Assembly: GCF_009905215.1 (NCBI RefSeq)
Contig: NZ_CP047593.1
Location: 3,662,900-3,726,899 of the forward strand
DNA from: Tichowtungia aerotolerans
Lineage (GTDB): Bacteria; Verrucomicrobiota; Kiritimatiellia; Kiritimatiellales; Tichowtungiaceae
DNA: 64,000 nt
Reading direction: 5' to 3'
Position numbers and translations under genes: made by a program. Numbering within the stretch: the stretch's first letter is position 1; every line of letters starts with the position of its first letter. The notes beneath the pieces are model-generated. The model was not told where the DNA came from. It saw only the letters and a program-made list of their open reading frames with translations, and ran no database searches. This document shows, in pieces, positions 44,136 to 54,730 of the stretch.

Positions 44136-47100
44136 CTAAGCATGAACCTCTTCGAGTTTTTCCTGCCCGTTCTCAGCAGCAAGGTCTTCAGGAGCCGTTT
44201 CGCTTTCCTCCCTGAACTCCACCGGCAAAGAGAAACTCAGCCGCTTTGTCAGCTCTGAAGGTTCCTGGAGGCACAGAGTTCCGCCGAGCAGTTCTGCATA
44301 GCGGCGAGTCAAAGAAAGACGCAATTCCTCTTCGTTCATTTCGCGAGTCGGCTTTTCCTCACTATTGGAATCAAACAGCCCCCCGGTCACTGCGGCATCC
44401 TGGTCTAGACTGCTGTACACCAGAAGGAACTCCATTTTCTTATGATGCTCGTCGAGATTCTCGCATGTTACATGCAGTCCGACCCGCCCCTTCCCGTCCG
44501 TTTTTTCGAGTGCATGGTCAAAGAGAGAGTCCAATACCTGTCGGATCCCGGCCGGATCAATACAAACTGTCGGCGGGAGACTGCTCGAACGGCTCAGGGC
44601 AAAAAACAGCCTTCTCTCTTTTGCTTTTTCAGTAAATTCGTCGGTCAGTCCGGTTAAAAATGTATTCAGGACAAAAGGCTCCGGCTGCAGGTGAATTCCA
44701 CCGTTTTCGAGCTGAAAAAGCTCCTGCTGATAGTTGAGCATCGACTGCAATCGCTGCCCGCAGCGGTTGATTTTCTTTAAACGGGTCCGCAGTCCGCTCG
44801 GCAGGTCATCATCATCATCAAGAACCGCTGCAGACAACTGTACGACTGGTTCCAGAGGTGCAGTTAAGTCTTCAGCAAAATCATAGACCTTACGCCCGCT
44901 GGCTTCGATCGTCTTACGCAACCGCTCTGCTTCCTGCGTGACGATTCGACGCGCATCCGCCTCCTGCACCGTCATTCTTTCCTGACGGGACAGTTTATGA
45001 CGTATAGAATCAATCTCCGACTGAAGTTCTTCTTCCCGCTCCTGCAAGGACTGCTGAGCCCGACGATTTTCCTGCATCTCCTCTTTAAACAAACTGATTC
45101 GGTGAGCAAGGCCGTCTTTTTCCAGCTTCACCATCCCTTCGAGTTCTTCCTTTGCCTTCTGCAATGAAGAGACCTCGGCCGTCCGTTTTTCCAGCGTTTC
45201 CTGAGTCTGAATCAACTGAGCAGACAGCTCTGCCTGTTCCGCTTTGATTTGATCTTCGTGTTCATGCTGACGTTTAAGTTTTTCCTTCAGCTCACGAGTA
45301 CGCTGCTGAATCTGCTCTTCAACCGCATCCCGCTCTTGAGCGGCAGCCTCACGGGTTTCCGCAATCTGATTTTCCAGATCAATCCGTTGGTCAGCAGCGT
45401 TGGCCAGTTCGCGAGTGCGCTGTTCAACGATTACCTCCAGCTCTTCTACTCGCTGCTGCAGTTCAGCTTCAGTGCGCCGCAACGTTTTTTCTGTGTCGCG
45501 GCTGGCGGCCTTGACATCGTTAAACTGTTTGACCTGTTCCGCCAATCGGTTCTTTTCCTGAACAACAGCCTCTTCCATACGCCGGCGGGTTTCGAGCAGT
45601 GCCTGCTCCTGCTGTTTGCGTGCAGCAACGGCGGCATCGAGCTCAGCTGTTCGCTCTGCAAGTGATGACTCCAGTTCAGCCAGCTGATGACTTGATTCTG
45701 TCTGCGCCGCCTTCAGCTGTTTTTCGCGCTCACGCAGCTCATTCAGTTCATTTGCAAGCGCCACTGTTTTCTGCTCAATCTGAACCTGATAGGTTTCACG
45801 GCCGGCCGCCGCCTCCTTACGGAGCTCTTCCAGCTCACGTTCCAAAGAACTGCGCTCCGATGCCGACTGTTCCAGTTCCTTGACCTGCTGAGCAATCCGT
45901 TCTTCGAGATCACTGCGAACCTGAAGTAACTCATCCTCCCGCGACCGCCATTCGGAAATTCTGGACTCAAGCTCTCCGGATCTGTCCTCAAGAGTTAACG
46001 ATACCTCTGCGAGGTTTTTACCCAACCGTTCACATTCTGCGGTCAGCTCATCTTCATGAGCAGTCCGCGCCTGCAGTTCTGATTTCAAACCATCGATTGT
46101 CTGCGTAAATTCAGCCTCAATGCGACCCCGTTCCTCAGCAAATTCATCGCGGGTTTTCTTCAGCAGCTCATCCAGCTGGCCACTCTGCTCAGATTCCCGC
46201 CCCAGTTTTTCCTGAAGATTTTTGAGCTCTTCCTCCATCTGCCGGCGGGTTTCCTGCAGAGACTGTTCCTGCTCCTTGTGTGCCGCAACAGCAGCTTCCA
46301 ATTCGGCGGTGCGTTCCTCCAGAGCACTGTTCAGCTCTTCCAGATGCCGGTTGTTTTCTTCCTGAGCGGCTTCCAGCTCCTGTGCACGTTCTTTCAGGCG
46401 GTTCACTTCCTGTTTCAGCGGAGCGGTCTGCTGCTCAATCCGAACCTGATACGTTTCACGTCCGGCAGCGGCTTCCTTACGCAATGCCTTCAGCTCGCTT
46501 TCCAGAGCCGTACGTTCTGATGCCGCCTTTTCAATCTGCTGCCGTTGTTCTTCGACACGCTCTTCCAGTTCACCGCGGACCTTCAACAGCTCGTGCTCTC
46601 TGGCCTTCCATTCCGAACTGCTGGACTCCAGCTCCATGGAGCGCTCCTGCAACGATTTTTTGATCTCAGCAAGACTGCTGTTCAGTTTAGCACATTCAGC
46701 AGTCAACTCCTCTTCCCGGGCGCGTCGAGCCTCCAGTTCCTCGGTCAAACCGGCGATTTTCTGACCGGTTTCCGACTCGAAACGCATCCGCTCCGCGGCA
46801 AATTCTTCGCGGGTCTGCTGCAGCAGAGTATCCAGTTGCTCGCGCTGCCCGGACTCCTGCTGAAGTTCCTCCAACCGCGCTTCGAGTGTTTCTTCCAGCG
46901 CTTCTCTCTGCGTCTCAAGTTCTGAAACGGTCTTATTCAGGGTCTCTTCACGAAGGCGATACGCTTCCAAATCATTTTCAAAATGCTTCACCTTCCCGGC
47001 CAGCGTTTCCTCCATTTTCTCGAGGTCCGCAATCAGTTTATCGCAAAGCTGTCGGGATTCCTCACGCGCGGTACGGGCCGCGGTCACCTGACTTTCCCTC

Positions 47101-49367
47101 TCCGCAATACGATTCCGGAGTTCATCGCATTCAGCACTCAGCTGTTGCTCCAGCGTCCGTTGACGGGTCACATCCATTCCGGTAACAGTAAAGCCATACA
47201 CGTCTTCCCGTTCCTGGATCCGGCAGTTTACGGTCAGGAATGTCCCTCCTGCTGTCGCCAAACGGTATTCATAATCTTTCTTCCGCTCAGAAGCATTTTC
47301 CGAGAAGGCGTTTTTGAGCAGATCCCGATCGTCTTTACAGACCAGGGTTTTAACATATGAGTGTCCCACCACCGCTGATTCATCCATTCCAAGAAGTTCC
47401 AGCAATGCATCATTGGCAGAACGAACCACTCCTGAAGGATCAACTGTCGCCACAAGCATCGACGCATTGCGCAGAATTCCAGCCTGCAGATCCCGCTGCT
47501 TCTCAAGCTCCGCCTCAACGGCCTTGCGGGGTGCTGCATCACTGTAGATCCCAATCATCCGTTCCGAACCGCCAAAGGATCCTGTAGTGACCCCGAGATC
47601 AGTAAACACAACCGACCGGTCCTTACGAACACAGGACAATGCATTGTCAAAACGCTGAGAATTCTCTGCACGCACCGCCCACTCTGCTAAAACCTGGCGA
47701 CGTGATCCCGGCGAGTGCAGATCACCTACTGTAAGGCGGGGTATCTCATCTGCAGTATAGCCAAACAGATCACAGAAAGCCGGATTGGCATACGAAATCC
47801 GTTTCGACGATGCATCGGCCATCATCATTCCAAACGGATTATTCTCAACCAGACCTCGGAAACAGGATTCAGACTGCTGCAGTTCCTGTTCACGGCGGGT
47901 ACGATCCGTCACATCGATCGTAATCCCTACAACGCCCTCCACCACACCGTCGTCACTCAACAGCGGATTTTCAATAGTTTCAACCCATTCTGTCCCATCC
48001 GATCCCGGCTTGGAATCCACTTTACGACAGAGCTCACCGTTCTTCATCGCCTGAATACCGATTTCATTTGCATCGCGTGAAACAGCAGGAAGCACTTCGA
48101 AGATGGTTTTGTCCATCCAGTCCGCAACCGGAACGCCAGTACGCTCTTCAAAACCACGGCTGACATACTGATAGCGGCAGCGGGAGTCTTTGATAAACAC
48201 ATCTCCGGGCAACGTGTTCAGAATACGCTGAAAAAAGGCCAACTGCTGGTCAAACTGTTCTTTGTCGCGCTTCTGCTCGCTGATGTCATACTGTGCCCCC
48301 ATAATGCAGACCAGCTTTCCATCCTCCACTATTCCCCAGGCATCATTATGCAAATAGAGCGGTGTACCGCGATGATTGGAGCAAACCCGTTCTTCGTCCT
48401 GTACGCTCAAGCCGCCCTCTAAAAACTTCTGAATATCATCGGGATTTTCAAACAGGCCGCATCCGCCTGGCAGATCTTTCAGTGCGGTTCCAGTCAGTTC
48501 TTCGACGGATCGACCGCAAAACTCAGCCAGTCCGCGGTTACAGGTTACCAGCTTCATCTGCCGGTGAATCCGGTCGGCCACTTTTTCAGCCGGCTGGTCC
48601 ATCACAATCGGCTCATCGGGGCGCAATTCATAAAAACTGCCCACAGTCCGGCACATGAATTCGCTGCGCTGTTCTGAAGCATGAGCCTGCTGACACCTCA
48701 GCTCCTGAGCGCTTACATCCACCAGAAGCCCAAAATAGCCAAGAACTGACTGATCTTTATCGCGAATCACAGAACCGCGTTCTGCAACATATACAATGCT
48801 TCTATCCTGCCTTTGCAGCCGATACCCCGACTGATACGGCAATTCAACAGAAACAAAACTCCGCCACTCTTCTCCGACCCGCTCCCGATCTTCCGGGTGA
48901 ACCGCACTAATCAATCCGGATTCCAGAATCTGCTGTTTAGAACGCCCGCACAGCGCTTCCATCGCCTGATTGATATAGATGCACTCGCCGGCATCGTTCA
49001 GTTTGAAAACTGCAGCGCCGCACTCGTCCAGCATACGGCTGTGTGACTCCAGCGTGTCCGCAAACCGGTTCGTCATTTGAGTCAATTCCTGGTTGGTGTG
49101 ATCCAGTTCCGGCAACAGATCCTCGCACTTTTGAGAAAACGAAAGAAACTGTCGCCGATATTTGAGCAATAGAAAAATACTCAACGCCAGCAAAAGAAGC
49201 AGTCCTATGACCCCGCAGATCAATCCAATCTGCAGCGTGGAAATGCGTCCCGAATCCGCAGGAATCTCCAACAAGGAATCCTGAGCAACTGCTGTTGATG
49301 AAATAAAAAACGGAACAAAAACGGCGGCTCGCCGGATCACGCCCCCGCAGTGTTGAATGATTTGCAT
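44136..49367 (-). CDS. Giant multi-PAS, long coiled-coil membrane protein ending in a degenerate histidine-kinase module
   Basis: A 1743-residue protein. Signal-like segment at about 1-28, one membrane helix at about 42-68 (GLICGVIGLLLLLALSIFLL), then about five PAS domains to residue 730 (for example VFKLNDAGECIYINQAMEAL and FGMMMADASSKRISYANPAF). From about 740 to 1470 it is one continuous Glu/Arg/Leu coiled coil, with a 660-base (220-residue) internal duplication visible in the DNA. The end (about 1480-1743) has the shape of a histidine-kinase core. However, the H-box reads AEDLTAPLEP (Glu where His is expected), the N-box is DSLFDHALEKT without the key Asn, and no DXGXG box is seen. Start ATG 49367 follows GAGAGGGG. 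It is likely a non-catalytic sensor or scaffold. Confidence 0.85.
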   Translation of the reverse strand: MQIIQHCGGVIRRAAVFVPFFISSTAVAQDSLLEIPADSGRISTLQIGLICGVIGLLLLLALSIFLLLKYRRQFLSFSQKCEDLLPELDHTNQELTQMTNRFADTLESHSRMLDECGAAVFKLNDAGECIYINQAMEALCGRSKQQILESGLISAVHPEDRERVGEEWRSFVSVELPYQSGYRLQRQDRSIVYVAERGSVIRDKDQSVLGYFGLLVDVSAQELRCQQAHASEQRSEFMCRTVGSFYELRPDEPIVMDQPAEKVADRIHRQMKLVTCNRGLAEFCGRSVEELTGTALKDLPGGCGLFENPDDIQKFLEGGLSVQDEERVCSNHRGTPLYLHNDAWGIVEDGKLVCIMGAQYDISEQKRDKEQFDQQLAFFQRILNTLPGDVFIKDSRCRYQYVSRGFEERTGVPVADWMDKTIFEVLPAVSRDANEIGIQAMKNGELCRKVDSKPGSDGTEWVETIENPLLSDDGVVEGVVGITIDVTDRTRREQELQQSESCFRGLVENNPFGMMMADASSKRISYANPAFCDLFGYTADEIPRLTVGDLHSPGSRRQVLAEWAVRAENSQRFDNALSCVRKDRSVVFTDLGVTTGSFGGSERMIGIYSDAAPRKAVEAELEKQRDLQAGILRNASMLVATVDPSGVVRSANDALLELLGMDESAVVGHSYVKTLVCKDDRDLLKNAFSENASERKKDYEYRLATAGGTFLTVNCRIQEREDVYGFTVTGMDVTRQRTLEQQLSAECDELRNRIAERESQVTAARTAREESRQLCDKLIADLEKMEETLAGKVKHFENDLEAYRLREETLNKTVSELETQREALEETLEARLEELQQESGQREQLDTLLQQTREEFAAERMRFESETGQKIAGLTEELEARRAREEELTAECAKLNSSLAEIKKSLQERSMELESSSSEWKAREHELLKVRGELEERVEEQRQQIEKAASERTALESELKALRKEAAAGRETYQVRIEQQTAPLKQEVNRLKERAQELEAAQEENNRHLEELNSALEERTAELEAAVAAHKEQEQSLQETRRQMEEELKNLQEKLGRESEQSGQLDELLKKTRDEFAEERGRIEAEFTQTIDGLKSELQARTAHEDELTAECERLGKNLAEVSLTLEDRSGELESRISEWRSREDELLQVRSDLEERIAQQVKELEQSASERSSLERELEELRKEAAAGRETYQVQIEQKTVALANELNELREREKQLKAAQTESSHQLAELESSLAERTAELDAAVAARKQQEQALLETRRRMEEAVVQEKNRLAEQVKQFNDVKAASRDTEKTLRRTEAELQQRVEELEVIVEQRTRELANAADQRIDLENQIAETREAAAQERDAVEEQIQQRTRELKEKLKRQHEHEDQIKAEQAELSAQLIQTQETLEKRTAEVSSLQKAKEELEGMVKLEKDGLAHRISLFKEEMQENRRAQQSLQEREEELQSEIDSIRHKLSRQERMTVQEADARRIVTQEAERLRKTIEASGRKVYDFAEDLTAPLEPVVQLSAAVLDDDDDLPSGLRTRLKKINRCGQRLQSMLNYQQELFQLENGGIHLQPEPFVLNTFLTGLTDEFTEKAKERRLFFALSRSSSLPPTVCIDPAGIRQVLDSLFDHALEKTDGKGRVGLHVTCENLDEHHKKMEFLLVYSSLDQDAAVTGGLFDSNSEEKPTREMNEEELRLSLTRRYAELLGGTLCLQEPSELTKRLSFSLPVEFREESETAPEDLAAENGQEKLEEVHA

Positions 49368-49595
49368 GAGACCCCTCTCAACCTGTCTGTTTCCCAAAAT
49401 AACGAAGAAGACAGATTAAAAAGCATTTCACATGCCATCCTGTGTGCAGTTCGCGCAAACAGATACACAAACACGCCCGCACCGCCCCTCCTGGCGCGGC
49501 ACGTACGGGCATTGAAAAATCTCAGAGATGAACTACTTAGTTTCGCCCATCAACCTGGCAACGGTCAGCGCCGTGGCATCCGCAGACGGCCTTTG

Positions 49596-50321
49596 TCAAA
49601 GAATTGAAAAATCGCAGACAATCGGCAGATGGTCGGAATAAAGAACTTTGGGCATCCAACAGCGCTCAACCTCAATTCCAGGGCTGTGGAAAATAAAATC
49701 CAGATGCCGCTTGGGCTTCCAGCTCGGGAACGTCGGCGAATTCGCCGCATGGGCGTTTTTCATCTGCGTGGCGGCGAGAAACAGCCGCACCTCCTGCTCG
49801 CCCCAAAGCGCGTTGAAATCACCGGCCACAACACACGGTTTATCAATCTCTTTGATCAGTTCGTAGAGATCTCCCAGCTGGCGGTGACGCAACCGCGATC
49901 CCAGCGGAAGATGGATCAGGAAAAAGACCACATCATCCATCTCAAGCTCGATCACCAGACGCTTCATGCCGCGGTCGAAATAGTGAAATTTTTCCTGATG
50001 CCCACTATCGCGAACAATAAAAGCGTTTCCCTGCTGATTTAAAACCGGAAGACGATTGCTGAATGAATCTTTACCGTATTTGGATCGATACACATGATAA
50101 TGCCCAAGCTTCTTCGCCAAGGTCTCAGCCTGATTGGTTTTGCGCGTGCGGTACGAACCCGCATCCACCTCTACCAGTCCTGCCACATCCGGATTCAGTT
50201 CGTGCAGGAAACCACTGATCTCTTCCAGCGTCTTTCCATTACGGCCCAAGTATCCCTGAAGCGGAAACTGGATCTTCCCGCCGCCGGTGCCGTATCGAAT
50301 GTTGTATAAAACAAACCTCAT
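49596..50321 (-). CDS. Endonuclease/exonuclease/phosphatase family protein
   Basis: A 241-residue metal-dependent phosphodiesterase or nuclease. The family motifs are visible: MRFVLYNIRYG (Asn), DVAGLVEVDAGS (metal Glu), FFLIHLPLG, CVVAGDFNALWGE (Asp-Phe-Asn), HLDFIFHS and LYSDHLPIVCDF (catalytic Asp-His). There is no signal peptide. Its ATG overlaps the murC stop by four bases (ATGA), so it is coupled to cell-wall genes. The substrate is unknown: DNA, RNA, a phospholipid or an inositol phosphate are all possible. Confidence 0.88.
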   Translation of the reverse strand: MRFVLYNIRYGTGGGKIQFPLQGYLGRNGKTLEEISGFLHELNPDVAGLVEVDAGSYRTRKTNQAETLAKKLGHYHVYRSKYGKDSFSNRLPVLNQQGNAFIVRDSGHQEKFHYFDRGMKRLVIELEMDDVVFFLIHLPLGSRLRHRQLGDLYELIKEIDKPCVVAGDFNALWGEQEVRLFLAATQMKNAHAANSPTFPSWKPKRHLDFIFHSPGIEVERCWMPKVLYSDHLPIVCDFSIL

Positions 50322-51556
50322 GTACGCGCCCAATCTGCCATCTGTTCAATATCGCCCGCGCCGATGATGAGCAGGACATCGCCAGCTCTCAACTCGCTGC
50401 GGATATCCTGCCACGTTTTTTCCAAACATTGGAAAAATTTTATGCGCTTTTTCCAATCATCGGCAAACCGGTTCATCAGGTCTTGAGTCGTACCGCCTTC
50501 CAAAGGCTGCTCAGAGGCCGCGTAAACCGGCAGCAGCCACAGTTTCTCCACCCCTTGGAACGCCGGAGGGAAGTCAGGCCCGAGCGCCCTTGTGCGCGTA
50601 TAGCGGTGCGGCTGAAAAACGCCCAGAAGCCGCTTCGGCTCCAGCGTTTCCAACGCCGTCTGGATCAGCGCCCGAATTTCAGTCGGATGATGCGCATAAT
50701 CGGAAATCACCGTGTAATCACCCTTAAAAACAGTTTCAAAACGCCGTTTCACCGGCTTCAGATTTTTCAGTGCCTGGAAGATGTCCGCCTCGGTTTTCCA
50801 ACCTCTGGACACTTCAATGGCGGCCATGGCATTTAATCGATTGTGACGGCCCGGCAGCGAAAGATTCAGCGATTGAAAAGAATACGGAACTGCTTTCGGG
50901 TTATCTTTGCAGAGCCGGGTCGCAACAGGATCATCGGCACAATATACGATCTTTTCTCTCGTTTGCGCGATGAACTGACGGAAACAGTTCTCGAAGGACT
51001 CGAAACTGTCGTGATGCTCCATGTGGTCGTATTCAATATTGGTAATCACGGCGATGTCGGGATGGTAGTTGGCCACCGTTCCATCCGATTCATCCGCTTC
51101 GACCACCATAATCTGGCCGTCACGCGCAACGCCGTCAAAGCCCGCCACTTCGCCTCCAACGCAAAAGCCGCAATCGAGAATCTGGGCGATCATAGACGTT
51201 GTTGTGGTTTTTCCGTGCGTACCGCTGACCGCAATCGTAAACCGGTCTTTCAACAGTTCCGGCAGCACATCGCCGCGCCAGCTGACCGGCACCGCAGCGG
51301 CCATCACATCAGGATGGGAATCCGGAACTGCGCGGGTTCTGATGATCCATTCGGTTCCAGGCGGCACCTCGTCCAGAACAGAAATCCCTTTCCCCCTGAG
51401 CCATTCGGTCTGGCGATTCTCCTGCGCATCGGAGCCGGAAACGACGTGACCATGCTCCTTAAGCAGAAACGCGAGCCCGGCCATGCCGATCCCGCCGATC
51501 CCGAGCATATGAATCCGGCGCGGCGCGGAAAGCAGACCGGTTATTTCTTTGCACAT
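50318..51556 (-). CDS. murC: UDP-N-acetylmuramate--L-alanine ligase
   Basis: Adds L-Ala to UDP-MurNAc in peptidoglycan precursor synthesis. Seen in 412 residues: HMLGIGGIGMAGLAFLL (UDP-binding Rossmann), P-loop AVSGTHGKTTTTSMIA, EADESDGT, NIEYDHMEHHDS, LPGRHNRLNAMAA, DYAHHPTEIRA, FQPHRYTRT. It is slightly short for MurC but complete. Its start overlaps the murG end by 16 bases, and its stop overlaps the downstream gene. A perfect palindrome with 9-bp arms at 50417-50437 encodes FQCLE. Confidence 0.95.
   Translation of the reverse strand: MCKEITGLLSAPRRIHMLGIGGIGMAGLAFLLKEHGHVVSGSDAQENRQTEWLRGKGISVLDEVPPGTEWIIRTRAVPDSHPDVMAAAVPVSWRGDVLPELLKDRFTIAVSGTHGKTTTTSMIAQILDCGFCVGGEVAGFDGVARDGQIMVVEADESDGTVANYHPDIAVITNIEYDHMEHHDSFESFENCFRQFIAQTREKIVYCADDPVATRLCKDNPKAVPYSFQSLNLSLPGRHNRLNAMAAIEVSRGWKTEADIFQALKNLKPVKRRFETVFKGDYTVISDYAHHPTEIRALIQTALETLEPKRLLGVFQPHRYTRTRALGPDFPPAFQGVEKLWLLPVYAASEQPLEGGTTQDLMNRFADDWKKRIKFFQCLEKTWQDIRSELRAGDVLLIIGAGDIEQMADWART
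50420..50434. repeat. Perfect dispersed palindrome TTCCAA-ACA-TTGGAA, longest arms
   Basis: The arms extend to 9 bp (TTTTTCCAA/TTGGAAAAA, 50417-50437). In murC on the minus strand it encodes FQCLE. Confidence 0.9.
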
Positions 51557-52623
51557 TGCTCCACCGTTTCAGCCAGTTTTTCGGCAGCATTGATTGAATC
51601 TTCGCGCAGCGCGCGGATGCGCATTTTCCCGAGCCGTTCCGGCTCTTCCATTTGTGTTCGAATATAATCAGCCAGCCACTCAACAGTCATTTCGGACTGC
51701 TGCACCACATCGGCAGCCCCCGCTTTTTCCAGCGCACGGGCGTTGGCGGTCTGATGATCGCTCGCCGCATGCGGATACGGGATCAACAGCGCCGGCAGGC
51801 CGAAAATACCGAGCTCTGCGCAGGTCGATGCCCCGGCGCGGCAAATCGCCAGATCAGCGGTTTCATACAAGGCAGCCATCTCCTGTGTAAACGCCAGGAC
51901 GTCTGCATTCATGTCGGCCTCTTCATAGCGCCGCCGAATGTGCGACTCATCAGCGGGACCGGTGAGATGCGTAACGCGCAATGCGTTTTGCGTATCAGGA
52001 GCCAGAAGACAAACCGCTTCGGAAACCATTTCGTTTACAGCATGGGCACCACCGGAACCGCCCATCACCAGCAACCGGAATTCCGGGGCCGAGGTCTTGG
52101 GCTCAGAACGCCTTTTGAACTCCGGCCGAAGCGGCATACCGGTTGTGACCAGATTCAGCCCTTTCAGATGATAGCGGGTTTCCTCAAAGCAAATAGCGAT
52201 GCAGGCGGCCTTTCCGGCCAGCATGCGTACAGCTCGACCGGGAATAGCGTTGGCTTCGTGCAGCACCACCGGAATCCCGCGCAGACGGGCGGCCAGACAG
52301 GGACCAATGGAGGAATAGCTGCCCATTGCCAACACGGCATCGGGACGATGCCGGAACATGGCAATCCAGCAGCGGATTACGGCAAGGACAATCCGGCAGG
52401 CCGTCAGAACAGAACGCATCGGCCCGAACTGGAACCCTTCTGACGGGATCGTGACAACCGGGCCCTTCCAGCCCTGCAGAACGGTGCTTTCCACATGCTT
52501 CCCGGAAAGCCAGAGCGTGACGTGATGACCACGGGAACGCAGCGCGCGGGCGGTTGCCAGGCCCGGGAAAATATGTCCGCCGGTTCCGCCACAGGCGACC
52601 GCAACATGAAGTTTTTCAGCCAT
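51541..52623 (-). CDS. murG: UDP-GlcNAc:lipid I N-acetylglucosaminyltransferase
   Basis: Makes lipid II at the inner face of the cytoplasmic membrane. Seen in 360 residues: the N-terminal glycine loop VAVACGGTGGHIFPGLATARAL, PVVLHEANAIPGRAVR, LLVMGGSGGAHAVNE, and ADLAICRAGASTCAELGIFGLPALLIPYPHAASDHQ. The start at 52623 is set by the homology; it overlaps the folC stop by 8 bases. Order on the minus strand is accD-folC-murG-murC, a compact operon. Confidence 0.96.
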   Translation of the reverse strand: MAEKLHVAVACGGTGGHIFPGLATARALRSRGHHVTLWLSGKHVESTVLQGWKGPVVTIPSEGFQFGPMRSVLTACRIVLAVIRCWIAMFRHRPDAVLAMGSYSSIGPCLAARLRGIPVVLHEANAIPGRAVRMLAGKAACIAICFEETRYHLKGLNLVTTGMPLRPEFKRRSEPKTSAPEFRLLVMGGSGGAHAVNEMVSEAVCLLAPDTQNALRVTHLTGPADESHIRRRYEEADMNADVLAFTQEMAALYETADLAICRAGASTCAELGIFGLPALLIPYPHAASDHQTANARALEKAGAADVVQQSEMTVEWLADYIRTQMEEPERLGKMRIRALREDSINAAEKLAETVEQCAKK

Positions 52624-53878
52624 TGAACAGTCCCTGTCTCCTGAGTTCTTCAGCAAGATACAGCGAACCGGTAAAGCAGAGAAGCCGCTTTTTACCGGAC
52701 TCGACCCAATTGCGGGCGGGCTGCAGATCTTCGATCGGCTCAAGCTTCATTCCAATGGTTTGCCCAACTTCGGCAATTTCCTCAGCACTCATAGCGCGCT
52801 CCCCGGGAAGCGTAACGGCGAATGCTTTTTCAGTCGCCGGTTTGAGAGCCGCCAGAATTCCGGCCACGTCCTTGTCTTTCATAAACCCGAAGACAAATCC
52901 GTTTCCAAACTTTGGAAAGATTTCGTCCAAGGTTTGGAACAGCGTTTCAGCGCCGTTCGGATTGTGTCCCCCATCAAAGATGATCGGCGGCTTCATGGAA
53001 AGCATCTGGAAGCGCCCCGGCCACCTGACGGTTTCGAGTCCTTTCTTCATCTGAAGCTTAAGGCCTTCGATATCGGACAGGTCTTCCAGAGCGGCCACGG
53101 CGATGCCGCAGTTCTCGAGCTGATAGCTGCCGCCAAGCGGCAGACGAATGTTGCGGTAGTCGGTTCCGCTGGCTTCGATGTCGACAAGCTGATCGGTGCG
53201 GCGACTGTCCAGAACCTGAAAAAATGCGGCCTCTTCGCTTCCAAGGATTGGAACTTTTTTGTCGGCGGCTTCTTTGTAAACAACGGCTTCGGCGGCAACC
53301 GGCATCGGCCCGCAAATGACCGGAACGCCCTCTTTAATGATTCCGGCTTTTTCCCATGCAATTTTCTCGAGGTCTTCGCCGAGGTAGTTGGCGTGGTCAA
53401 GTGCGATGCGGGTGATGACGGATACGACCGGCTGAATGACATTGGTGGCGTCCCAGCGCCCGCCCATACCGGTTTCGATAACGGCGTACTCCACACCGGA
53501 GCGTTTGAAGTGCTCAAAAGCAATCGCTGTGGACAGTTCAAAAAACGTAGCGGGCCGCAAGCCGGTTTTTGAATCGGCAACTTCAACCGCCTGGATCAGC
53601 TGATCGAGATTCTCATTGGGAATGTCCTGCCCGTTGACGCGGAAGCGCTCGTTGAAGCGAATAAGATGCGGCGACGTATAGAGTCCGGTCTTTTTACCGG
53701 AAGCGCGCAGCACCGACTCAATCATGGCGCAAACCGACCCTTTGCCATTGGTGCCGGCGACATGTATGCTTTTAAATTCCCGCTGCGGATTACCGAGCTG
53801 GTCGAGCAACGCGGTAATCACGTCGAGACCGGGCCTGATGCCCAGAGCGGTGCGGGCGAATAGCTGTTCAATATTCAT
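52616..53878 (-). CDS. folC: Folylpolyglutamate synthase / dihydrofolate synthase
   Basis: Adds glutamate to dihydropteroate and folates. Seen in 420 residues: VAGTNGKGSVCAMIESVLRASG (P-loop), TSPHLIRFNERFRVNG, FELSTAIAFEHF, VIETGMGGRWDATNVI, SVITRIALDHANYLG, IFDGGHNPNGAETLF. It is a normal length for the family. It contains three dispersed palindrome copies (52903 perfect, 52926 short, 53239 perfect), the densest gene in the window. It starts 6 bases after accD. Confidence 0.95.
   Translation of the reverse strand: MNIEQLFARTALGIRPGLDVITALLDQLGNPQREFKSIHVAGTNGKGSVCAMIESVLRASGKKTGLYTSPHLIRFNERFRVNGQDIPNENLDQLIQAVEVADSKTGLRPATFFELSTAIAFEHFKRSGVEYAVIETGMGGRWDATNVIQPVVSVITRIALDHANYLGEDLEKIAWEKAGIIKEGVPVICGPMPVAAEAVVYKEAADKKVPILGSEEAAFFQVLDSRRTDQLVDIEASGTDYRNIRLPLGGSYQLENCGIAVAALEDLSDIEGLKLQMKKGLETVRWPGRFQMLSMKPPIIFDGGHNPNGAETLFQTLDEIFPKFGNGFVFGFMKDKDVAGILAALKPATEKAFAVTLPGERAMSAEEIAEVGQTIGMKLEPIEDLQPARNWVESGKKRLLCFTGSLYLAEELRRQGLFNG
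52903..52917. repeat. Perfect dispersed palindrome TTCCAA-ACT-TTGGAA
   Basis: In folC; 7-bp arms. A second, shorter copy (TCCAA-GGT-TTGGA) follows at 52926-52938 and encodes FQTLD, so two copies lie within 36 bases. Confidence 0.85.
52926..52938. repeat. Short copy of the dispersed palindrome, TCCAA-GGT-TTGGA
   Basis: In folC; on the minus strand it encodes FQTLD. Confidence 0.6.
53239..53253. repeat. Perfect dispersed palindrome TTCCAA-GGA-TTGGAA
   Basis: In folC; here the frame gives VPILGS. Confidence 0.82.
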
Positions 53879-53884
53879 CGAGCA

Positions 53885-54730
53885 CTATGTATCCATCATA
53901 TAGTCGAGAACAGTTGAAAGGCGCTCTTTGAGTTCGTGGCGCGGAACCACCATATCAATGAGTCCGTGCTTCTCGAGAAATTCAGCGCGCTGGAACCCTT
54001 CGGGGAGATCCTGCTGAGTGGTCTCTTTGATCACGCGCGGACCGGCAAACCCGATCAATGCGCCGGGTTCAGCCATAATGATGTCGCCAAGCGTCGCGAA
54101 GCTGGCCATGACACCGGCCATCGTCGGATGTGTCAGCACCGGGATGTATGGGAGCCCGGCTTCCGCGTGACGGGCAAGTGCGGCACTGGTTTTGGCCATC
54201 TGCATGAGACTGAAAAGTCCTTCATACATACGGGCTCCGCCGGAAGCGCAAACAATGATACAGGGTATTTTCTGTTCGGTGCAGCGTTCAATCTGACGAG
54301 TGATTTTTTCTCCCACTACGCTGCCCATGCTGGCTCCGAGAAATTTGAAATCCATAACGCTGATGCCGACGGAGCGACCGTTTATTTTTGCGGCACCGCA
54401 GGTGACCGCATCTTTAAACCCGGTCTTTTTCTGATTTGCTTCGAGTTTGGCAATGTAGGAATCCTGTCCGGTAAAGCCGAGCGGATCGGCGGAAGTCATA
54501 TTGGCGTCCCACTCCTGAAAAGTTCCTTCATCGGCAAACAGGTCAATACGCGCCTGACGGCCGAGGCTGAAGTGATATCCGCATTTTGGGCAAACCTGAA
54601 GATTTTCAGCTAACTCTTTGGTGTAAATAATTTCACTGCAACCAGGACATTTTTCCCACAATCCATCGGGCACATCCCGCTTGCGAACCTGAACTGTTGA
54701 ATACTTCTTTTTGCCGAATCGTAAAGCCAT
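53885..54730 (-). CDS. accD: Acetyl-CoA carboxylase carboxyltransferase subunit beta
   Basis: Part of the enzyme that makes malonyl-CoA for fatty acid synthesis. The 281-residue protein has the N-terminal four-Cys zinc ribbon ([19 protein letters not shown] then VCPKCGYHF) and the crotonase-like core with [61 protein letters not shown], and [15 protein letters not shown]. The partner accA is not in the window. First gene of the accD-folC-murG-murC run, with folC 6 bases downstream. Confidence 0.97.

Follow-up and report, generated by a model that had tools for sequence, protein, structure and literature searches.

The window, a 64,000-nt stretch of the Tichowtungia aerotolerans genome, carries on its minus strand (44136..49367) a gene for a 1743-residue protein in which an array of PAS domains and a very long coiled coil precede a histidine kinase (HK)-like end that appears to have kept its fold and lost its catalytic residues. 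With moderate confidence, we interpret the product as a giant pseudo-HK specific to the order Kiritimatiellales that acts as a PAS-gated, long-reach docking scaffold and works without phosphotransfer. A preliminary description of this DNA had argued against a phosphorelay enzyme, and this negative claim has good support at the level of sequence, where the loss of motifs extends to the whole family.

The gene was delimited from the list of open reading frames, the sequence itself, and orthologues. Its frame starts with an ATG at 49367 and ends with a stop codon at 44138-44136; the calculated mass of the product is 198 kDa. A Shine-Dalgarno–like sequence, GAGAGGGG (49372..49379, minus strand), lies 4 nt 5′ of this ATG, which is therefore preferred over an upstream TTG start that would yield 1753 residues. 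A scan for promoters and terminators revealed no convincing site. The gene product matches the initial account of a 1743-residue multi-PAS coiled-coil protein with a pseudo-HK end, every checked number of which was right; that account gave no strand.

The structure of the C-terminal part was predicted with AlphaFold2 from a 17-sequence alignment. In the model, a DHp-type helical hairpin and a CA domain of alpha/beta type can be distinguished (mean pLDDT 83.6, pTM 0.75), and its best solved structural matches, in comparisons that included Foldseek, were RetS (Z 20.6), GacS (Z 20.5), and DivL (Z 17.8). Profile searches with the C-terminal region likewise returned RetS (E = 3e-23) and DivL (5e-11). 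The DHp-like hairpin, defined by the model and its RetS, GacS, and DivL matches, would span residues 1482-1554 (44706..44924, minus strand), and the CA/HATPase-like domain, devoid of nucleotide-binding motifs, residues 1563-1719 (44211..44681, minus strand; model, fold comparison, and alignment). The DHp and CA fold of a kinase is thus predicted to be retained.

All catalytic HK motifs, i.e., the phospho-His, the N-box Asn, DxGxG, and the GxG box with the ATP lid, are absent in a profile alignment to RetS and in an alignment that includes ten kinases from the source genus. In the profile alignment, the phospho-His column of RetS is occupied by Glu1499 (44871..44873, minus strand). Among 17 family sequences, this position is Glu in 12, Asp in 2, and Gly, Thr, or Arg in 1 each; neither His (0 of 17) nor Tyr occurs there. 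His1618 (44514..44516) stands at the site of the N-box Asn, where the family has Tyr (14 of 17) or His (3 of 17), and Tyr1651 (44415..44417), within YSSLD, replaces the Asp of DxGxG (Tyr in 16 sequences and Phe in 1). Residues 1679-1683, EEELR (44319..44333, minus strand as the preceding two), align with the GTGLG (GxG) box. The canonical box sites of the protein therefore read AEDLTAP, DHALEKT, YSSLD, and EEELR. The ten control kinases keep SHEIRTP or SHELRTP, the N-box, and DTGIG-type and GTGLG-type boxes where these are covered (one of the ten alignments starts past the H-box). The preliminary description had listed the phospho-His, the N-box Asn, and DXGXG as missing; this holds, and the GxG box is gone as well. 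Structure-guided alignment, a check named beforehand, found neither a functional phosphoacceptor His nor an ATP lid.

The losses are not confined to the window protein, as all 20 C-termini of a wider alignment are without the motifs. The Pfam HATPase_c model scored below its cut-off on the 1743-residue protein (E = 0.057). The C-terminal domain is 46% identical to that of the nearest orthologue, and 17 of its columns are invariant over the order. Because the same specific aromatic replacements recur family-wide, the nucleotide pocket appears to have been remodelled, unlike what would be expected from random decay. Residual ATP binding by the CA domain may be compatible with these replacements.

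At the other end of the protein, a probable signal peptide (residues 1-28, RR...VFVPFFISSTAVA; 49284..49367, minus strand) and a transmembrane helix (residues 47-68; 49164..49229, minus strand) were recognized by eye. Similar N-termini are present in most orthologues, the helix is kept in the N-terminal alignment, and the layout of signal peptide and transmembrane segment is common to most of the family. The helix is followed by KYRR, which, by the positive-inside rule, would place the remainder of the protein in the cytoplasm.

Up to five stretches behind the helix were recognized by Pfam as PAS. PAS1 (residues 111-218; 48714..49037) is supported by Pfam PAS and the AlphaFold2 model, PAS2 (residues ~244-361; 48285..48638) by the secondary structure of the model and the alignment, and PAS3 (residues 384-491; 47895..48218), with invariant Cys397, Trp417, and Trp461, by Pfam PAS_4, the alignment, and the model. 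PAS4 (residues ~502-620; 47508..47864) was delimited by Pfam PAS_8 at 502-547 and the N-terminal alignment, and PAS5 (residues 637-734; 47166..47459) by Pfam PAS_9 and the same alignment; all five lie on the minus strand. PAS1 to PAS3 (residues ~111-491) are the conserved part of the sensor array, 45 columns being invariant among 22 sequences. Only the source genus has PAS4 and PAS5 at this place; in the N-terminal alignment, Pontiellaceae have no PAS4 there, and some of their orthologues carry a PAS immediately N-terminal to the DHp instead. The AlphaFold2 model of PAS1 to PAS3 contains three PAS folds (pLDDT 84.7), with a pTM of only 0.44, so that the relative positions of the domains are uncertain. 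Foldseek matches of this model were to proteins with several PAS domains (e.g., DosP, FixL, and MmoS) and do not indicate a ligand. Three cysteines, Cys276 and Cys303 of PAS2 and Cys397 of PAS3 (window region 47720-48545), are found unchanged in 22 of 22 orthologues and point to redox or metal sensing as a possible function.

Between the sensors and the kinase-like end, residues ~755-1490 (44898..47105, minus strand) form a continuous coiled coil, as judged by periodicity, autocorrelation, and a phase scan; a stretch of 740 residues contains a single proline. With a rise of 0.1485 nm for each residue, the ~736 residues of the coil would extend over 109 nm, in agreement with the ~730 residues and ~100 nm first suggested. 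The power of the hydrophobic periodicity was 46.6 at 3.54 (0.02 grid) and 67 on a finer grid, compared to a 99th percentile of 8.5 in shuffled sequences. The coil is built of 39-residue units (39/11 = 3.545 residues per turn): each of the ten coils that were tested has a period of 3.545-3.550 and is autocorrelated at 39, 78, 117, and 156. Matches to SMC and Rad50 (NCBIfam) were far below cut-off and reflect coiled-coil composition only. The hydrophobic seam is a single phase-coherent stripe along all 736 residues and continues, modestly shifted, in DHp helix 1, and rod and DHp are thus probably one continuous pair of helices. We infer that the coil is a parallel homodimer.

The S-helix is a parallel coiled-coil unit of ~40 residues with an ERT signature that is located between sensor and output domains (PMC1592074). 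Units of this kind, linking sensor to output, are matched by the 39-residue repeat in the ten coils. The window coil contains five RT.EL-like signatures with spacings of 220, 78, 39, and 39 (shuffle mean 0.7, maximum 4). In one relative (L021/L062), a clear array can be seen, in which a unit like QELxxEIAERKKTEExLRQNESELxxxxxxLEAxIEQRT is present in seven or eight copies, while the signature is sparse or missing in the coils of several other orthologues. Descent of the coil from the S-helix is therefore likely, though short of proof. Whereas the S-helix is a single element in ordinary kinases, ~19 units would stand in tandem here, with a signature that has degenerated in many of them. A part of the rod is itself duplicated: residues 821-1040 (46248..46907) and 1041-1260 (45588..46247, both minus strand) are 57.7% identical over 220 residues without gaps, and 47 and 43% identical, respectively, to the single copy in the orthologue L060. 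Third codon positions are near-saturated (35-53% identity in the core), which excludes a recent expansion; the duplication is old, yet lineage-specific.

The preliminary description had also suggested a ruler. In six Pontiellaceae, a coil of ~650 residues has no internal indels at a mean coil identity of 47%; per 1000 aligned residues, there are 0 indels in the coil, 1.4 in PAS1 to PAS3, and 4.9 in the DHp-CA part. Divergent sequence combined with conserved length is the pattern described for molecular spacers (review, PMC5082667), and it is present in these six genomes. Intolerance to register shifts alone could account for part of the absence of indels. Over the order, the distance from PAS3 to the DHp varies from 526 to 997 residues, in part via extra PAS domains. 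Coil lengths of other members differ by 78, 82, 14, and 4 residues; the changes are mostly large steps (78, 82, and 220), and large ones preserve the phase (78 residues are 22 turns and 220 residues are 62 turns). Given this range and the 220-residue duplication in the window protein itself, no single fixed length is measured in the order: coil length is held inside a lineage and is not one value order-wide. The ruler suggestion thus receives mixed support, holding for the six Pontiellaceae only, and the order as a whole lends no support to a strict ruler.

In searches with an N-terminal profile, 25 of 43 Kiritimatiellales genomes (24 besides the source genome) had one orthologue each, which in one genome is split into two frames, whereas 245 genomes from elsewhere in the class had none. 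The order consists mostly of marine bacteria, and relatives with the gene include Pontiella sulfatireligans F21, a metagenome-assembled genome (MAG) labelled Pontiella desulfatans, and other Pontiellaceae isolates and MAGs. In the source genus, the gene is present in only 4 of 14 genomes; since it is missing from the other 10, it has no core cell function there. With a C-terminal profile, family members scored 284-401 bits versus at most 124 bits for proteins from outside the order, the best of which is a 1698-residue canonical hybrid kinase (G290) that was rejected as a member. Large open reading frames of the genus with 1412, 1557, and 1575 residues (L022, L023, and L024) were also rejected; they are ordinary kinases with the His and DxGxG and have no long proline-free coil. 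On these comparisons of sequence, the proteins form a discrete, order-specific family and not one decayed gene. The family is not described in the literature searched.

To our knowledge, only a few pseudo-HKs have been recognized, DivL being the studied one. DivL of Caulobacter (PDB 4q20) has no kinase activity, binds ATP weakly, and binds DivK~P through its core; a dead HK core can thus act as a sensor of response regulators (PMC4211667). The window protein resembles DivL in being membrane-anchored and multi-PAS and in ending with an HK core that has no phospho-His and is predicted to be non-catalytic. In contrast to DivL, which is alphaproteobacterial, carries Tyr or, rarely, Ala in place of the His, and contains no long coil, the Kiritimatiellales family has mostly Glu at the His site (Glu1499 in the window protein, and no Tyr in the column), a more deeply changed pocket, and, in full-length members, a rod of 650-740 residues. 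DivL is also not the closest match, either by sequence or by fold. The protein is therefore like DivL in principle, but it is no DivL.

The closest DHp and CA domains, by profile and by fold, are those of RetS from Pseudomonas aeruginosa (PDB 6dk7, 6dk8, and 7n0e). RetS keeps SHEIRTP and the N-box, and neither a PAS array nor a long coil is reported for it. The sensor of RetS is a 7TMR-DISM; the 1743-residue protein has PAS sensors and no His in the H-box. As RetS demonstrates, binding by an HK core can serve to regulate another kinase (PMC12148439). FrzS of Myxococcus (PMC1974792) combines a non-phosphorylatable two-component domain with a long coiled coil by which position within the cell is controlled; its dead domain, however, is a receiver, its coil has 258 residues, and it contains no PAS. 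Pfam and NCBIfam scans found no receiver domain in the window protein. PodJ of Caulobacter (PMC8980812) is comparable in that it is a coiled-coil scaffold and regulates a histidine kinase with PAS domains, but it is not described as having a PAS array or a kinase fold itself.

In the scheme that we favor, the single transmembrane helix would anchor the protein in the inner membrane, and the PAS domains just inside the membrane would sense a cytoplasmic signal that is possibly redox-linked, given the three invariant cysteines. A parallel homodimeric rod of ~100 nm, made of tandem 39-residue S-helix–like units, would bear the dead DHp and CA domains at its far end, where they may serve as a docking or allosteric module for receiver domains or active kinases. 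The protein would then, with no phosphotransfer involved, bring a partner to, or sense a partner at, a great distance from the membrane. Conservation of this design across the order suggests that the dead kinase does not act as an enzyme but as a docking element carried on the end of a long arm. About 41 receiver domains are encoded in the source genome, so that two-component partners are available. The scaffold role put forward at the outset is plausible; docking itself is what we infer from this design. Several points count against it: the dead core could be a mere capping or dimerizing element, the CA domain may have residual ATP binding, most genomes of the source genus do not have the gene, and no neighbor gene is common to the source genome and Pontiellaceae.

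A bolder form of the docking scaffold can be offered only tentatively. The protein would be a membrane-rooted "fishing rod" of ~100 nm under the control of its sensors that arose by tandem amplification of an S-helix switch, its dead core would read two-component proteins deep in the cytoplasm or elsewhere, and its length would be set in each lineage by the number of units; this would make it a new class of signaling protein.

Alternatively, the rod itself could be the function, as a polar tether, spacer, or filament former, with a kinase-like end that only caps or dimerizes it and no two-component partner. The coil is the most divergent part of the protein and still has no internal indels in the six Pontiellaceae, as in spacers (PMC5082667), and no conserved two-component gene adjoins the gene in the loci examined. 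We nevertheless consider such a cytoskeletal or spatial element unlikely, since the C-terminal domain, with its 46% identity and 17 invariant columns, is more conserved than a cap would need to be, and three sensor PAS domains with 45 invariant columns are conserved as well.

More doubtful is a RetS-type inhibitor, whose DHp would swap with that of an active kinase, giving a heterodimer without activity. RetS, the closest solved structure by profile and fold, blocks GacS via a heterodimeric DHp interface (PMC12148439). However, RetS itself retains SHEIRTP, and its top rank may be due to a divergent domain of the hybrid-kinase type. Moreover, a 736-residue coil in phase with DHp helix 1 would keep the DHp homodimeric and hinder exchange; with a dimeric coil of such length leading into the DHp, DivL-type reading appears more likely than RetS-type exchange.

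The properties of the rod also bear on a possible long-range transmission, in which a rod derived from the S-helix would relay a conformational change from the PAS domains to the distant dead core. The 39-residue units are close to the ~40 residues of the S-helix, the five RT.EL signatures exceed the shuffled maximum, the register continues into the DHp, and large changes of coil length are phase-preserving. Yet, a relay over 100 nm would demand an unusually stiff coil, conservation of register is expected in any coiled coil, and several orthologues show the signature only weakly or not at all. We regard transmission as improbable.

A working atypical kinase that binds ATP and uses another acceptor is very improbable. 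HATPase_c does score above its gathering threshold in a few orthologues (26.8 bits in L062 and 27.8 bits in L065), and Glu or Asp is frequent at the His site, but in 17 of 17 sequences aromatic residues take the places of the Asn and Asp by which Mg-ATP and adenine are held, and the acceptor position is variable (E/D/G/T/R). Finally, although catalytic residues are gone and two orthologues (L046 and L047) are frame-split, a decaying pseudogene or an annotation error can be dismissed, because the frame is stop-free over 1743 codons, 24 orthologues exist, 20 orthologues share the same losses and specific replacements, and the folded parts are 46-53% identical to those of the nearest orthologue.

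The family, fixed in one order and endowed with a remodelled pocket and a ~100-nm rod, would serve as an independent case of non-catalytic reuse of an HK core. A rod made of repeated S-helix–like units offers a test of how, and how far, such coils carry signals or, alternatively, of whether bacteria make golgin-like tethers out of signaling parts. Since there are cultured members, such as P. sulfatireligans F21, the family is open to experiment.

Upstream of the gene, on the same strand, accD, folC, murG, murC, and an endonuclease/exonuclease/phosphatase-family gene are located at 50318-54730, which places it at the end of a cell-wall and lipid housekeeping cluster. A shared operon was rejected, as murC, murG, the endonuclease/exonuclease/phosphatase-family gene, and an aldo-keto reductase gene do not adjoin the gene in other genomes. 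In most Pontiellaceae, a gene with a GH18 domain lies a few bases downstream of the orthologue (L044/L075/L049), and a gene for a protein of ~400 residues (407 residues) with no Pfam match lies upstream on the same strand; neither neighbor had a match in the source genome, in searches run without a positive control. Gene order in the loci examined thus indicates no partner.

Several orthologues have unusual frames or ends. In a one-contig genome (L047, 7637-11823, minus strand), the orthologue is split between PAS2 and PAS3 into overlapping frames of 371 and 1038 codons, which may be due to a sequencing error, a real break, or a programmed frameshift; another (L046) is split ahead of the C-terminal part. 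In L061 (8530-9243; the same as L020), the frame runs ~240 residues beyond the pseudo-kinase to the contig end with no Pfam match, possibly a fusion or a contig-end artefact. Pontiellaceae orthologues with an intact C-terminus (L064, L065, L069-L073, L075-L077, L079, and L080) all end with GAA, mostly AGAA, past a variable linker. This ending resembles a ClpXP-type C-terminal degron and might act as one; AGAA was rejected as a family-wide degron, as the window protein ends with EEVHA. The tmRNA tag of the source genome is ADESYALAA.
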